Position numbers and translations under genes: made by a program | Notes under the pieces: model-generated | What the model was told of the DNA's origin: nothing | What the model saw: the letters and a program-made list of their open reading frames with translations, nothing else | Database searches by the model: none | Origin: Bacteroidota bacterium | GTDB lineage: Bacteria; Bacteroidota; Bacteroidia; Flavobacteriales_D; Sanyastnellaceae | Length of the DNA stretch: 64,000 nt | Assembly: GCA_027624855.1 (NCBI GenBank) | Contig: JAQBTQ010000004.1 | Span: 1 to 64,000 of the forward strand | Direction: 5' to 3' | Shown here: piece after piece, positions 38,048 to 45,080 of the stretch | How positions within the stretch are numbered: position 1 is the stretch's first letter | Layout: each line of letters begins with the position of its first letter

Positions 38048-38126
38048 ATTGTTCGAAAGAAAAAGTGGCTTGAGGCGATTGATACGGTATTTTTCGTTAA
38101 TTCGATTTCGAATCCATTCAATCGCA

Positions 38127-40973
38127 ATGAAACAGTCGTTCATTCTTTTCTTGTTTACGGTCATATTCGCTGGACTCCATGCACAAGAAATGCTCCGAGG
38201 TAGGGTAATTGATGCTGAAATAGGAGAGCCAATTTTTTCAGCAAATGTCATCATCGAAGGAACGACGACTGGGGTTACTACCGATTTTGACGGGCAGTTT
38301 TTATTGCCTGTGCAATCGTTTCCAGTCCAATTGCAAATCAGTTTTATCGGATACAGCGTGAAGCGAGTTACTGTGCAAAACGCTTCAGATAAATTGACGG
38401 TTCGATTGTCTCCAGATCAAATTCTCATTGATGCTGCCGAGGTCGTTGGTGATCGCATTAGTCAAAAACAGAAGCAAGCACCACTTACGGTTGAATCCAT
38501 GGACGTGATTGCCATTAAGGAAGCGCCGAGTGGATCGTTTTACGAAGGACTGGGAAACCTCAAAGGTGTGGATGTCACTTCGGCCAGTTTGGGATTCAAA
38601 ATCATCAATACGCGAGGGTTTAACTCGACTTCGCCGGTGCGTTCGCTCCAGCTTATTGATGGCGTCGACAACCAAAGTCCAGGATTGAATTTCTCATTGG
38701 GGAATTTCTTGGGAGCGTCCGACTTGGACGTTAAGAGCGTTGACATTGTAGCGGGTGCGAGTTCGGCGTTTTATGGACCAGGTGCGTTCAATGGCGTGGT
38801 ATCAATGGAGACCAAATCTCCATTTCAATTTCCTGGAGTCAATGCGTCCCTTCGAGTTGGTGAGCGAGAATTGAATGAGTTGGCCTTTCGCTATGCCGAT
38901 TTCACAACGGATGAAGATGGCAATGCCGTCTTTGGCTTTAAGGTGAATGCCTTCCGACTGTCAGCTTATGATTGGGAGGCGACCAATTACAATCCGGTGG
39001 ATGGATCCCAAGTGGATCCGAATAACCCCGGTAGATATGACGCAGTTAATATCTATGGTGACGAGTACAAGCCTGTATTCGATTATTCTGGCGATGGGAG
39101 CAGCAATGCAAGAGGGTTAGGGAACTTTTTTAGGACGGGATACAAAGAAGCAGATTTGGTGGATTACAACACCGAGAATATCAAATTCAGTACGGCTTTG
39201 CACTGGCGATTAAATCCTGAGGAAACGTATGAGAGCCCGGAGCTCATCTATGGATTTAATAGCGGTTTTGGAACAACGGTTTATCAGGGAGACAACCGAT
39301 TCAGCTTACGGGATATCGAATTTTATCAGCACAAATTGGAATTGCGTAAACCAGGCAAATGGTTTATTCGTGCCTACAGAACTTCAGAAGACGCCGGGAA
39401 CTCCTACGATCCGTACGCGACGGCATTGAAGTTGCAAGATCAAACCCGATCGGATTATCAGTATTCGAAAGTTTACTATCGGTACTGGGTCGATAGCATC
39501 GTTCCGGGAATCAATGAAACTTGGCCTGATCTCGTACAAATTGGCGTTGACCCAGATTTTGGTTTTCCCATATATGGTTATGAAGATGGGGCTATCCCAG
39601 CATGGTACGATGCTTATGGCGATTCGTTGAGTTATTGGCACTCACAGGTTGAAGCTTGGACCAATGCTGGTTATGCGGGGCTGGGAGATGTGGCACAATA
39701 TCCTCTGGGTTATTGGGCGCCGGGAACGCCGGAATTTGAGGAGAATTTCAATGCGCTGATTTCAGCCAAGAACAACGAGGGAGAGGGTGGAACGCGGTTT
39801 TTTGATCAATCCAGCTTATCTCATCTGCACGGAGAATACGTGTTTGATTTGGAGGGATTTGAAGAGCTCAGGGTCGGGGCCAATTTCCGTCGCTACACTC
39901 CTTGGAGTGATGGCACCATATTCAGCGATACGACAGAAAAGATTGTCAATCAGGAAGTAGGGTTTTACTCGGGAATTAAGCGACGATTTTTGGAGGATCG
40001 ATTGATTGCCACCGCAACAGTGCGGGCCGATAAAAATCAAAACTTTGATTGGGTCTATTCACCTGCAGCATCACTTGTATTCTCTCCACGAGAGCAAGAC
40101 TATTTGAGGATGAGTTTCAGTTCGGCTCTCCGAAATCCAACGTTGGCTGATCAATACCTTTGGTTGGATGTAGGCCCAGCGACGCTTGTAGGAAACTTAG
40201 AAGGGGCCGACAGCTTAATCACGCTAGGGAGTTTCATTGACTTTCGAAATTCAGCAGATGCTGCGAACGGTCAATACGGTTTGAATCGGGATACCCTTGT
40301 GTACTTTAATATTGATCCAATCCGACCGGAAAGGGTAAAAACATTTGAAGTGGGATACCGGACGACACTAGGAGAAAAGGTGTACGTTGATGGTGGATAT
40401 TACTTTAGTGTATATCGAGACTTCATAGGATATAACATTGGATTAGACGCCCTTTTCATCGGCCAAGAACAATCACCAAGAGCGGTGGATGTTTATCGAT
40501 ACGCGGCGAACTCATTGAGCGAAGTTCAAACGCAGGGTGCTTCCATTGGACTGAACTATTACTTGGACAATAACTACATGATTTCTGCGAATTACAGCTG
40601 GAATGAATTGGTTAAAACAGATGTGGATGACCCCATTATTCCAGCTTTTAATACGCCAAAGCACAAATACAATTTAGGCGTGACGGCACGAGACCTTGAA
40701 TTGAATAGTAAGGCGAAGTGGGGCTTCGGTGTGAACTACAAATGGGTTGAAGGATTCAAATTCGAGGGCTCTCCACAATTCACTGGATTTGTACCAACCT
40801 ACGATTTGCTTGATGCGCAGGTCAATGTTGTTGTTGATTCATGGCATACAACTTTCAAATTAGGAGGATCGAATTTGCTTGAAAACATCCACATTGAAGC
40901 TTATGGTGGACCCTATGTGGGACGTATGCTTTACGGAAGCATTATTTACGATTTCAACCACAAGAAAGACTGA
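38127..40973 (+). CDS. TonB-dependent outer-membrane receptor
   Basis: A signal peptide (MKQSFILFLFTVIFAGLHAQ) is followed by a carboxypeptidase-regulatory-like domain (about 21-105, GRVIDAEIGEPIFSANVIIEG). A plug (about 115-240; LIDGVDNQSPG, VDIVAGASSAFYGPGAFNGV) and a 22-strand-like barrel follow. The total is 948 residues from the ATG at 38127; the longer frame starts with TTG inside the S4 gene region and lacks a signal. No SusD gene follows, so a simple TonB-dependent transporter is likely. The substrate is unknown. Confidence 0.94.
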   Translation: MKQSFILFLFTVIFAGLHAQEMLRGRVIDAEIGEPIFSANVIIEGTTTGVTTDFDGQFLLPVQSFPVQLQISFIGYSVKRVTVQNASDKLTVRLSPDQILIDAAEVVGDRISQKQKQAPLTVESMDVIAIKEAPSGSFYEGLGNLKGVDVTSASLGFKIINTRGFNSTSPVRSLQLIDGVDNQSPGLNFSLGNFLGASDLDVKSVDIVAGASSAFYGPGAFNGVVSMETKSPFQFPGVNASLRVGERELNELAFRYADFTTDEDGNAVFGFKVNAFRLSAYDWEATNYNPVDGSQVDPNNPGRYDAVNIYGDEYKPVFDYSGDGSSNARGLGNFFRTGYKEADLVDYNTENIKFSTALHWRLNPEETYESPELIYGFNSGFGTTVYQGDNRFSLRDIEFYQHKLELRKPGKWFIRAYRTSEDAGNSYDPYATALKLQDQTRSDYQYSKVYYRYWVDSIVPGINETWPDLVQIGVDPDFGFPIYGYEDGAIPAWYDAYGDSLSYWHSQVEAWTNAGYAGLGDVAQYPLGYWAPGTPEFEENFNALISAKNNEGEGGTRFFDQSSLSHLHGEYVFDLEGFEELRVGANFRRYTPWSDGTIFSDTTEKIVNQEVGFYSGIKRRFLEDRLIATATVRADKNQNFDWVYSPAASLVFSPREQDYLRMSFSSALRNPTLADQYLWLDVGPATLVGNLEGADSLITLGSFIDFRNSADAANGQYGLNRDTLVYFNIDPIRPERVKTFEVGYRTTLGEKVYVDGGYYFSVYRDFIGYNIGLDALFIGQEQSPRAVDVYRYAANSLSEVQTQGASIGLNYYLDNNYMISANYSWNELVKTDVDDPIIPAFNTPKHKYNLGVTARDLELNSKAKWGFGVNYKWVEGFKFEGSPQFTGFVPTYDLLDAQVNVVVDSWHTTFKLGGSNLLENIHIEAYGGPYVGRMLYGSIIYDFNHKKD

Positions 40974-41123: not shown

Positions 41124-44100
41124 ATGAAAAAATTATTATTCGGTGCGCTATTTGCGTGCTTGCTTGTGCTCCAAGTGGATGCGCAAACACGTTACCTCGA
41201 CGAGGTTTTCGATGAAGTAACGGTTACGACGGACGTCGTTTATGGTGCAAACATCACGGTGATTCCCGCATTGCAAGGAATGCCTCCAGCAATGGAAGAC
41301 CTTAAATGCGACATTTACGAACCCACCGGAGACACCGAATCGAATCGTCCATTGTTATTGATTTTCCACACAGGAAATTTCTTGCCCCCTTACATCAATG
41401 GTGGTCCATTGGGAACGAAATCCGACAATTGGGAAGTAGAGATGGCCACGCGATATGCCAAGATGGGATACGTGGTGGCTTCGTGCGATTATCGATTGGG
41501 TTGGAATCCTCTGGCTGCGACTCAAGAAGAGCGTACCCTCCAATTGATTCAAGCTGCATACAGAGGCGTCCAAGACAGCCGAACTGCAGTTCGTTTCTTC
41601 AGAAAAACCCAAGCCGAAGACGGAAACCCCTACGGAATCAATCCTGATATGGTAGGTATGATTGGTAATGGCACTGGTGGATACATCACCCTTGCCTCGT
41701 CAACGATTGAGAGCTACAACGACATCATACTTGATGACACAGGTTCACCAATTACGAAGTTTTGGTATAATCCAGGAGACGGTTCTTACATTCCAATGGT
41801 CATCGAAGGAATTCACGGCAATCCCGATGCCACGACGGATACTTATGCCCCTGCTTCGCTTGGTGGATTCCAATTGTGCGCGGCGAACCACGTAGGATAC
41901 GATTCTGATGTGAACTTCCAAATGAACGCTGGTGGTGCATTGGGAGATTTGAATTGGTTAGACGAAGGTGACATCCCGATGGTGAGTTTCCAATGTCCGC
42001 ACGATCCTTTTGCTCCTTATGAAACATCCGTTTTGATTGTTCCAACGACCAATGAGCCAGTTGTGGAGGTTTCTGGTGCTATGGACATTCATGAAGAAAT
42101 CAATGGATACGCCACCAATAACAATGCTGTATTCGCAGATGCCGGATTGCCAGATGGCGGTTCTCCTGCGAATTTGGGATATGACGGATTGTTCCCTGTC
42201 TTGAATAGTTATGTTGACGGAATGCCAACTGAGCCATATGATAGCTCGCCATGGCAGTGGTTCGACACCGCGCCTGTGCAGGCGTACGACGATGCTAACG
42301 GCACGAATATTCTCGCCACTCAGTTGACCTTGAATCCCACGATGGGCGAGGCTGAGGCAATGGAATGGATCGGAACGATGGTGGATTACAACACCCCACG
42401 TATGGCGTTGGCCCTAGGTGCAGTGACGGAAACGACCATCGCAGGAGGTGTTCGTTACATCGATGAAATTTTTGACGAAGTGGAAGTCGCTTCGGGTGTG
42501 GTTTACGGTGAAAACATCACCGTTATCCCAGCGCTCCAAGGCATGCCTCCAGCGCCAGAAAACCTGTTGATGGACGTCTACACGCCTGCTGGCGATACGG
42601 AGACAGATCGTCCCGTAATCCTATACTTCCACACGGGTAACTTCTTGCCACAATACTTGAACGGCTCAGCCGTGGGTACACGCTCAGATAGCTCAGCCGT
42701 TGAGATTTGCTCGCGTTTTGCCCGAATGGGATATGTGGTTGCATCTTGCGATTACCGATTGGGGTGGAATCCACTTGCTGCGACGCAAGCTGAGCGGACG
42801 CTCCAGTTGATTCAAGCGGCATACCGTGGTGTACAGGACAGCCGAACAGCAGTTCGTTATTTCCGTAAGTCCATCGCTGAAGACGGCAACCCTTGGGGAG
42901 CTAACGGCGATAAAATTGCCATGTTCGGTGAAGGAACGGGTGGATACATCACGTTGGCATCGTCCACGATTTCTAGTTATAACGATATCATCGTAGATGA
43001 CTTGGGTAACCCGATTACAAAATTCTGGTACGATCCAGGAGACGGTTCATTCATCCCCATGGTTATTGAGGGAATTCACGGTGACGTGAATGCGACGACC
43101 GATACCTATGCTCCAGCCTCCATTGGAGGGTTCCAATTGTGCATGGCCAACCACGTTGGGTACTCAAGCGATTTCAATTTCCAAATGAACTTGGGAGGAG
43201 CATTGGGTGACTTGAACTGGTTGGATGAAGGCGATATGCCAATGGTCAGCTTCCATGCTCCTCACGATCAGTTTGCACCGTACACCACTGGTGTATTGAT
43301 TGTGCCTACGACAAATGAGCCGGTTGTTGAGGTGTCAGGTGCGTATGATATCCATGACGAAATCAATGGATACACTACCAACAACAATGCGCCTTTTGCT
43401 GAGATTGGTTTGGCCGATCCAGCTGCTGATTTCGGTAACATGGGCTGGGACGGTCTGTATCCAGTGCTTAACAATTATGTAGATGGCACTCCAACGGAGC
43501 CTTACGATGGTTCACCATGGCAATGGTGGGATGTTGCGATTACGCAGGCGGTTGACGCAGCCAATGGCACCAATATCGCCGCGACACAACTCACTTTGAA
43601 CCCAACAATGGGTCCTGAAGAGGCCATGTATTGGATTGATCAAATTCAAGATTACACTGCGCCACGATTGGCAGCAAGCCTCGAGGTCGTAGCCCTCGGC
43701 CCTGGTTGCAATGATGAAACTGCTTGTAACTACAACGCTCTAGCAACATCAGATGACGGAAGCTGCATTTATGCGGAGGAAGGCTTTGATTGTGATGGTA
43801 ATTCATTGGTCGTTTATGGATGCACCAGCCCTATTGCTTGTAACTACGACGGTTCTGCAACAGACGATGATGGAAGCTGTGATTTTAACGAATCTACTAC
43901 CATCGTAACCGGAGCCGAAATGGTTTGGTTGGTCGGTGTTACATTGACAGGAACCGATAATGAAGTATATGCTGCTGATTGTGAAGCAGGCGGAGGAGTA
44001 AATCCAAACGTTGCTTTGAACGGGGTGTTCTTGGGTGATGGAACCGCTGGACCAATGCAATTCTCGAACATCACTGATCAAACAGGAGGATTGTTGGCTG

Positions 44101-45080
44101 ATTTGGTGATGCTTGCGGGAATGGCTCAAATTTCATTCTGTGGAGACTTGATTCGATTTGTGGATCCAATCACTGGAGGCACGGTTGTTTTGAGTGAATC
44201 AGATGGCATTTGGCAATCGGCTGTTCCAATCATTGGACCTAGCTACTTGTGGGCAGCGCCGATAACTTCATTCAACCTCGGTTGCGGTAATCCAATGGCT
44301 TGTGGCTTTACAGATTTCTGTGATTTGAGTGTAGCTTGTGATTACTCCGATACGGATGGTGATTCGATTTTGGATTGCCAAGAAGTTGTAGGCTGTCAAG
44401 ATCCAAGTGCAGACAATTACAACGCTGCTGCAACTGACGCAGGAAGCTGCAATTACAATGGATGCATGGATTCTTCTGCTCAGAACTACGAACCTGGAGC
44501 CAACGTTGATGATGGTAGCTGCGCGTATTTGGTTTCTTTCCGAATCAACATGTCGAATGAAACCGTTTCATCTGCAGGCGTGCACATCGCTGGTAGCTTC
44601 CAAGCATGGGACCCTGCTGCTACAGCTGTACCTTATGTAGGATATGGTGTGTATGAGGTTGTGATTCAATTACAGCAAGGAACCTATGAATACAAATTCA
44701 TTAATGGTGATGCGTGGGGAATGGATGAAAGTGTTGGAGAATGCGGAAACGGCGGAAACCGTGTGATCACCGTTTCAGGCAACACAACAACGAGCGGAGC
44801 GTGTTTCAATAGCTGTGATCAATGCCCAGGTTGCACTGATCCTGGCTATGCAGAATACAATCCATTCAGCGCAAGTGATGCCAGCTACTGCTTGAATCCT
44901 TTGGCAGTAGGATGTACCTACGCTGACGCTGATAACTACAATCCTGCCGCAAACTCGGATGATGGGTCATGCGTGTTTAGTGGGAATGGATCTTGTCCAG
45001 GTGATTTGAATGGCGACAATTCTGTTGGTACTCCCGATTTGTTGACATTCCTATCCAACTTTGGTACTTCGTGCGAATAA
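41124..45080 (+). CDS. Large secreted protein: two serine-less alpha/beta-hydrolase domains, DDGSC repeats, dockerin-like tail
   Basis: 1318 residues with a signal peptide ending at about Ala20. Residues 23-429 and 444-850 are two alpha/beta-hydrolase-like copies at an offset of exactly 421. Each has HTGNF (oxyanion region), CDYRLGWNPLAATQ and a nucleophile elbow GNGTGG (181-186) or GEGTGG (602-607), with Gly in place of the catalytic Ser. Next come Cys-rich repeats of the form GCx-(A)-x-NYNxxAxxDDGSC (from about 861, 899, 1090, 1113 and 1263). A starch/glycogen-binding-like fold lies at about 1138-1220 (VHIAGSFQAWDP, YEYKFINGD). The tail is CPGDLNGDNSVGTPDLLTFL. It is probably surface-attached or released. 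Function unknown; binding rather than hydrolysis is suspected. Confidence 0.85.
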   Translation: MKKLLFGALFACLLVLQVDAQTRYLDEVFDEVTVTTDVVYGANITVIPALQGMPPAMEDLKCDIYEPTGDTESNRPLLLIFHTGNFLPPYINGGPLGTKSDNWEVEMATRYAKMGYVVASCDYRLGWNPLAATQEERTLQLIQAAYRGVQDSRTAVRFFRKTQAEDGNPYGINPDMVGMIGNGTGGYITLASSTIESYNDIILDDTGSPITKFWYNPGDGSYIPMVIEGIHGNPDATTDTYAPASLGGFQLCAANHVGYDSDVNFQMNAGGALGDLNWLDEGDIPMVSFQCPHDPFAPYETSVLIVPTTNEPVVEVSGAMDIHEEINGYATNNNAVFADAGLPDGGSPANLGYDGLFPVLNSYVDGMPTEPYDSSPWQWFDTAPVQAYDDANGTNILATQLTLNPTMGEAEAMEWIGTMVDYNTPRMALALGAVTETTIAGGVRYIDEIFDEVEVASGVVYGENITVIPALQGMPPAPENLLMDVYTPAGDTETDRPVILYFHTGNFLPQYLNGSAVGTRSDSSAVEICSRFARMGYVVASCDYRLGWNPLAATQAERTLQLIQAAYRGVQDSRTAVRYFRKSIAEDGNPWGANGDKIAMFGEGTGGYITLASSTISSYNDIIVDDLGNPITKFWYDPGDGSFIPMVIEGIHGDVNATTDTYAPASIGGFQLCMANHVGYSSDFNFQMNLGGALGDLNWLDEGDMPMVSFHAPHDQFAPYTTGVLIVPTTNEPVVEVSGAYDIHDEINGYTTNNNAPFAEIGLADPAADFGNMGWDGLYPVLNNYVDGTPTEPYDGSPWQWWDVAITQAVDAANGTNIAATQLTLNPTMGPEEAMYWIDQIQDYTAPRLAASLEVVALGPGCNDETACNYNALATSDDGSCIYAEEGFDCDGNSLVVYGCTSPIACNYDGSATDDDGSCDFNESTTIVTGAEMVWLVGVTLTGTDNEVYAADCEAGGGVNPNVALNGVFLGDGTAGPMQFSNITDQTGGLLADLVMLAGMAQISFCGDLIRFVDPITGGTVVLSESDGIWQSAVPIIGPSYLWAAPITSFNLGCGNPMACGFTDFCDLSVACDYSDTDGDSILDCQEVVGCQDPSADNYNAAATDAGSCNYNGCMDSSAQNYEPGANVDDGSCAYLVSFRINMSNETVSSAGVHIAGSFQAWDPAATAVPYVGYGVYEVVIQLQQGTYEYKFINGDAWGMDESVGECGNGGNRVITVSGNTTTSGACFNSCDQCPGCTDPGYAEYNPFSASDASYCLNPLAVGCTYADADNYNPAANSDDGSCVFSGNGSCPGDLNGDNSVGTPDLLTFLSNFGTSCE
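41190..43673 (+). repeat. Tandem duplication of a 421-codon domain inside one gene
   Basis: Two copies of about 407 codons start at 41190 and 42453 (offset 1263 bases) and end near 42410 and 43673. Protein identity is high by eye, while many third codon positions differ. The duplication is therefore old and both copies have been held by selection. An assembly artefact is unlikely. Confidence 0.9.

Follow-up and report, generated by a model that had tools for sequence, protein, structure and literature searches.

SusD serves as a surface lid for glycans in Bacteroidota. The SusC/SusD and RagA/RagB systems are encoded by gene pairs that combine a TonB-dependent receptor with an exported surface protein, and the locus described here is likewise such a pair. 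In BtuB/BtuG-dependent vitamin B12 uptake, the receptor operon carries a surface protein other than SusD, and the two products form a stable pedal-bin lid complex (PMC10404256). In the literature covered, the surface partners of Bacteroidota TonB receptors, SusD and BtuG, are all lipoproteins. A precedent of another kind is offered by neuroligins, in which a cholinesterase-like domain is used for binding partners (PMC5563082). The BD-FAE and hormone-sensitive-lipase-like esterases (PF20434, PF07859; structures 6nkf and 5ao9) share with the protein under study a common sequence profile, the DYRLG motif, the elbow and the acid loop. However, the protein differs from these esterases in that: the nucleophile Ser is replaced by Gly; the loop carrying the catalytic His is absent; HGG has become HTG; and extra GWNP and PWxWW elements are present. 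We refer to it below as the pseudo-esterase.

The window analysed in this study is a stretch of 64,000 nucleotides from a Bacteroidota bacterium, and all features located in it below are on the + strand. The pseudo-esterase gene (41124..45080) is a single open frame with an ATG start that encodes 1318 amino acids. As read from the sequence, the protein begins with a signal peptide, MKKLLFGALFACLLVLQVDA (41124..41183), that has no lipobox Cys. Two hydrolase-like domains of about 410 residues each follow, the first covering residues 21-431 (41184..42416) and the second (42450..43682) being 75% identical to it. The protein matches PF20434 (BD-FAE) in two stretches with 50.3 bits (cut-off 26.8; E 2.8e-13) and, being above the Pfam gathering score, is a BD-FAE family member by sequence profile. 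Downstream of the second domain are Cys-rich repeats of the form GCxDxxAxNYxxxAxxDDGSC with a linker (43725..44576), a weak CBM48/X25-like beta domain (44577..44792; PF16561/PF22058 near the cut-off) and the C-terminal tail CPGDLNGDNSVGTPDLLTFLSNFGTSCE (44991..45077), to which tails in many other proteins of the genome are related. A TonB-dependent receptor (38049..40973, the likely true start being the ATG at 38127) is encoded 150 bp upstream.

The initial annotation had recognized two alpha/beta-hydrolase domains with Gly in place of the nucleophile Ser, and both the PF20434 match and an alignment of a profile of 23 relatives to solved esterases bear this out. In this alignment, residue 3 of the GxGTGG elbow lies opposite the catalytic Ser of both 6nkf (GDSSGG) and 5ao9 (GGSAGG). 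In domain 1, the elbow reads GNGTGG from residue 181 (41664..41681), with Gly183 replacing Ser; in domain 2, it reads GEGTGG from residue 602 (42927..42944), with Gly604 at this position. The former oxyanion region, of the HGGSF/HGGNF type in Ser esterases, reads HTGNF in both domains, at residue 82 (41367..41381) and at residue 503 (42630..42644). The positions given earlier for the elbows are thus correct. So is the statement that the acid region is kept, as DPFAPY lies opposite the acid region (D-VVPY) of the solved esterases in the profile alignment. The region comprises PHDPFAPY with the retained acid Asp294 in domain 1 (41997..42020) and, assigned by position, PHDQFAPY with the corresponding Asp in domain 2 (43260..43283).

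When the elbow residue was tallied among homologues, as had been proposed, every one of the 114 domain copies sampled from the GTDB family of this bacterium had Gly at the nucleophile position, and 103 of them had HTGNFL. In 12 close orthologues, the elbow Gly codon was GGC, GGA or GGG with the residue Gly in every case; synonymous sites in this set are near saturation (pS 0.73-0.83). Purifying selection acts on the close orthologues, in which dN is 0.05-0.12 and dS almost saturated. No conserved GxSxG was found elsewhere, a stray GxSxG outside the elbow being present in 26 of the 114 family copies. The acid Asp was retained in sequence tests for an active esterase, but neither the GxSxG Ser nor the catalytic His was found, which supports the view that the pseudo-esterase is dead for Ser-His-Asp chemistry. 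The predicted geometry of the pocket rests on the alignment, as structure predictions are low in confidence (mean pLDDT 36.5 for domain 1 with an alignment of 24 close rows, and 31.5 for the domain 2 core alone). Neuroligins have also undergone a Ser-to-Gly change, although they are eukaryotic synaptic proteins of a different subfamily and have no transporter.

Within this GTDB family, 110 of 114 genomes, representing all 21 genera, carry homologues, a few of the matches being Ser-type cousins. Strong hydrolase matches extend to several families of the order, and within the class Bacteroidia matches at E up to 1e-45 were obtained in 134 of 296 genomes (71 of 165 genera). A search for relatives of the hydrolase in viral contigs found none. 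Single-domain homologues across the class share the Gly, in agreement with the earlier proposal that this change is older than the duplication; it is older by far. The genome itself (G000) carries a single-domain paralogue, L104 (G000:C22:6107-7345, - strand), which is 64% identical to domain 1, has the elbow GDGTGG and ends in a normal T9SS type A tail; this genome has one partner receptor only. Four other loci (L164, L208, L214 and L215) are second tandem or divergent copies with the elbows GEYTGG, GTGSGA, GEDAAG and GVGFGG, as if the elbow drifts more freely once a second copy is present.

A tree of 122 core domains, from which the elbow and oxyanion columns were left out, separated the HGG/GxSAG esterases from the HTG/HAG family. 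Within the latter, a class-wide Gly clade of 91 rows (SH-aLRT 99) carries Gly in 89 rows, Tyr in one and Asp in one. The basal HTG/HAG rows carry Ser (GSSSGAY) or Asn (GSNSGGY), and a small group contains both Asn and Gly. Of the 25 Ser-type rows, 20 have a GxGH motif following the acid. This loop is absent from the Gly clade and also from the basal Ser-bearing HAG rows, a segment of the GLYP...PWxWW type taking its place in both. As the basal Ser-bearing HAG rows are already devoid of the His loop, the His loop was lost first and the Ser later. His323 in DIHEEI was considered as a retained catalytic His and rejected, since Ser esterases vary at this position and have their conserved His in the later GxGH.

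The acid Asp is kept in 97 of 99 Gly rows, and Asp294 is 99% conserved. At least 15 positions not fixed among Ser esterases are near-invariant in the Gly clade; these include T83, P88, N92, D101, W127, N128, P129, R137 and Y146, as well as K212, F213, A297, P376, W377, N404, P405 and R426. At the level of sequence, this looks like the replacement of one constraint by another, not like decay. The Gly label requires six changes on the tree. One long-branch row beside the basal rows, L147 (G119:C4), has HGGSF with a GFGAGG elbow and lies directly after a partner-type receptor; its placement, with Gly but HGG, indicates that Gly may have arisen more than once, and L147 is possibly an independent Ser-to-Gly change.

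The most informative fact, absent from the initial annotation, is that the adjacent gene encodes a near-obligate TonB-dependent receptor partner, an arrangement suggestive of a role in transport. Of 24 loci from across the class whose surroundings were compared, 21 have a TonB-dependent receptor of about 950 amino acids encoded immediately upstream in the same orientation. Apart from this receptor, no other recurring partner gene was found at these loci; the second frequent neighbour, an E1 dehydrogenase, is a housekeeping gene and was rejected as a third component. In the measured relatives, the gap between receptor and hydrolase is -127 to 131 bp, the negative values being due to uncertain start codons. 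The receptors of relatives are 45-62% identical to that of the window. The partner receptor is recognizable without doubt, as it scored 1427 bits in its own genome and the next TonB receptor 71 bits. A TonB receptor on a Spirosoma plasmid was considered and rejected as an orthologue of the partner, being distant (34.6% identity) and located beside an MFS gene. The N-terminus of the receptor is related to SusC (8aa4, E 5.5e-22), and the receptor scored 119.9 bits with the SusC/RagA profile TIGR04056, below the cut-off of 368. Unlike SusCD, the pair has a partner that matches the PF20434 alpha/beta-hydrolase profile instead of SusD and has no lipobox Cys, and is thus not a SusD lipoprotein. The near-obligate pairing of a receptor with an exported partner does agree with a SusCD/BtuBG-like mode. 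BtuG, however, is a beta-propeller lipoprotein with a known ligand. We found no paper describing this receptor-hydrolase pair in the open-access literature.

In the class sample of 296 genomes, 127 have both genes, 4 the hydrolase only, 3 the receptor only and 162 neither. By a strict rule, 91 of the pairs are adjacent, a few more are reversed or have a larger gap, and in about 30 genomes the two genes are unlinked. The order sample outside the protein's own family gave a similar distribution (both, 58; hydrolase only, 6; receptor only, 2; neither, 219), and so did a single genus, g29 (23, 0, 1 and 48, respectively). Fisher tests of co-occurrence gave p values of 1e-74 and 6e-51, in which phylogeny is ignored; the within-genus pattern and the unlinked pairs are better evidence of co-occurrence than these values. 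Broken assemblies or fragments account for many of the exceptions. A re-search of the exceptions detected receptor fragments in most hydrolase-only genomes, no receptor being found in G069, G209, G315 and G397, and several receptor-only genomes yielded no clear Gly-type hydrolase. In one genome (G152:C3:289387-291364), numerous stop codons interrupt the partner receptor and the hydrolase next to it has diverged (E 9e-87), which is possibly a case of joint decay of the pair. In another (G126), a hydrolase split between two frames (L158, C2:357938-359147) directly follows an intact partner receptor, and a second, longer hydrolase copy (L141) is located elsewhere.

The partner receptor adjoins none of the Ser-bearing esterases examined (7 GxSAG loci and 5 Ser-HAG loci), and the Ser-HAG genomes carry the receptor elsewhere in the genome. 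Three of the Asn loci adjoin the receptor and two do not. Since the receptor also occurs in genomes with Ser-bearing HAG members, Gly is not a prerequisite for the pairing. Receptor pairing probably began around the time of the His-loop loss, before Gly was fixed.

With respect to export, all 10 single-domain relatives analysed, including the paralogue on C22, carry a T9SS type A sorting domain (TIGR04183). The window protein has no TIGR04183 match and ends in a short DLNGD...DLLxFLxxFG tail. Many large proteins of the genome also contain Cys-rich DDGSC repeats and a CPGDLNGDxxVGTxDLLxFLxxFG tail, and about 125 further matches to the segment at 44928-45077, weaker or partial, lie elsewhere in the genome. 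The repeats and tail resemble a lineage-specific surface tail replacing the usual T9SS sorting domain. For the window protein itself, which has this recurrent tail in place of TIGR04183, export is likely.

In the reading favoured here, an exported BD-FAE esterase ancestral to the Bacteroidia proteins first lost the loop with the catalytic His. Its nucleophile Ser went next, through Asn-bearing forms to Gly, while the acid Asp was retained and a new set of invariant residues was gained. Over the same stretch of history, the pseudo-esterase would have become tied to one dedicated TonB-dependent receptor. Today it is most likely situated at the cell surface, where it would capture a ligand at or close to the pocket of the former active site and pass it to the receptor for uptake, by analogy with SusD or BtuG, to which it is unrelated. 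We estimate a probability of roughly 0.6 that this ancient exported pseudo-esterase acts in this manner as the ligand-capture partner of a dedicated TonB transporter. Against this reading, the lids described in the literature covered are lipoproteins, whereas the pseudo-esterase begins with an ordinary signal peptide and carries T9SS-type or other tails. The initial annotation had suggested either an exported module for binding, devoid of catalysis, or an enzyme of novel chemistry, and this is partly supported: the predicted loss of Ser-His-Asp chemistry and the export stand. Deadness is firmer than could have been known then, because the catalytic-His loop is also gone and both changes are ancient.

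Other explanations differ in how well they accommodate these observations. An ordinary active esterase, misaligned or mis-sequenced, would fit the family profile, but this is refuted at the level of sequence by the invariant Gly, the synonymous changes in its codon and the lack of an alternative conserved GxSxG; with Gly in all 114 family copies, the sequencing error once considered as an alternative is eliminated. The protein might still be an enzyme that uses chemistry without Ser or His (e.g., based on Asp, a metal or water) and processes the receptor's substrate at the cell surface beforehand. The conservation of Asp294 and of the former active-site loops, which are among the most conserved parts, would be consistent with this notion, and a partner receptor implies substrate handling. 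However, the elbow offers neither Ser nor Cys, the His loop has been replaced, and the Asn, Tyr and Asp at the elbow of relatives suggest that this residue is not a precise catalyst; we therefore regard continued catalysis as unlikely.

Alternatively, the near-obligate pairing with one receptor could reflect a partner that binds no nutrient and serves a structural, gating, assembly or protective function (e.g., as a phage or toxin cap), the fold being used as a protein-protein interface as in neuroligins. The hydrolase profile did retrieve the structure of neuroligin-4 (2wqz, E 3.5e-4), a synaptic protein with a cholinesterase-like domain. However, the most strictly conserved residues lie to a large extent in the loops that formed the oxyanion, elbow and acid regions, and such a function seems similarly improbable. 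As most pairs are adjacent, the linkage could also be due to operon history alone, the two genes being inherited or transferred as a unit while having unrelated functions. This is very improbable, given the genomes that hold both genes unlinked and the patchy yet concordant presence within one genus.

If ligand capture is indeed the function of the pseudo-esterase, the pair may represent a previously undescribed, class-wide type of TonB-dependent uptake, in which the capture subunit is a dead alpha/beta-hydrolase exported by the T9SS and intermediates between esterase and transporter survive in living lineages; we consider the chances for and against this broader proposal to be evenly balanced. 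The pair would point to a nutrient that is used by many Bacteroidia. Should the proposal be true, it would: widen the set of TonB surface partners beyond the lipoproteins SusD and BtuG; provide a clear case of an enzyme turned transport subunit with surviving intermediates; and give many apparent esterase genes a testable non-catalytic role.
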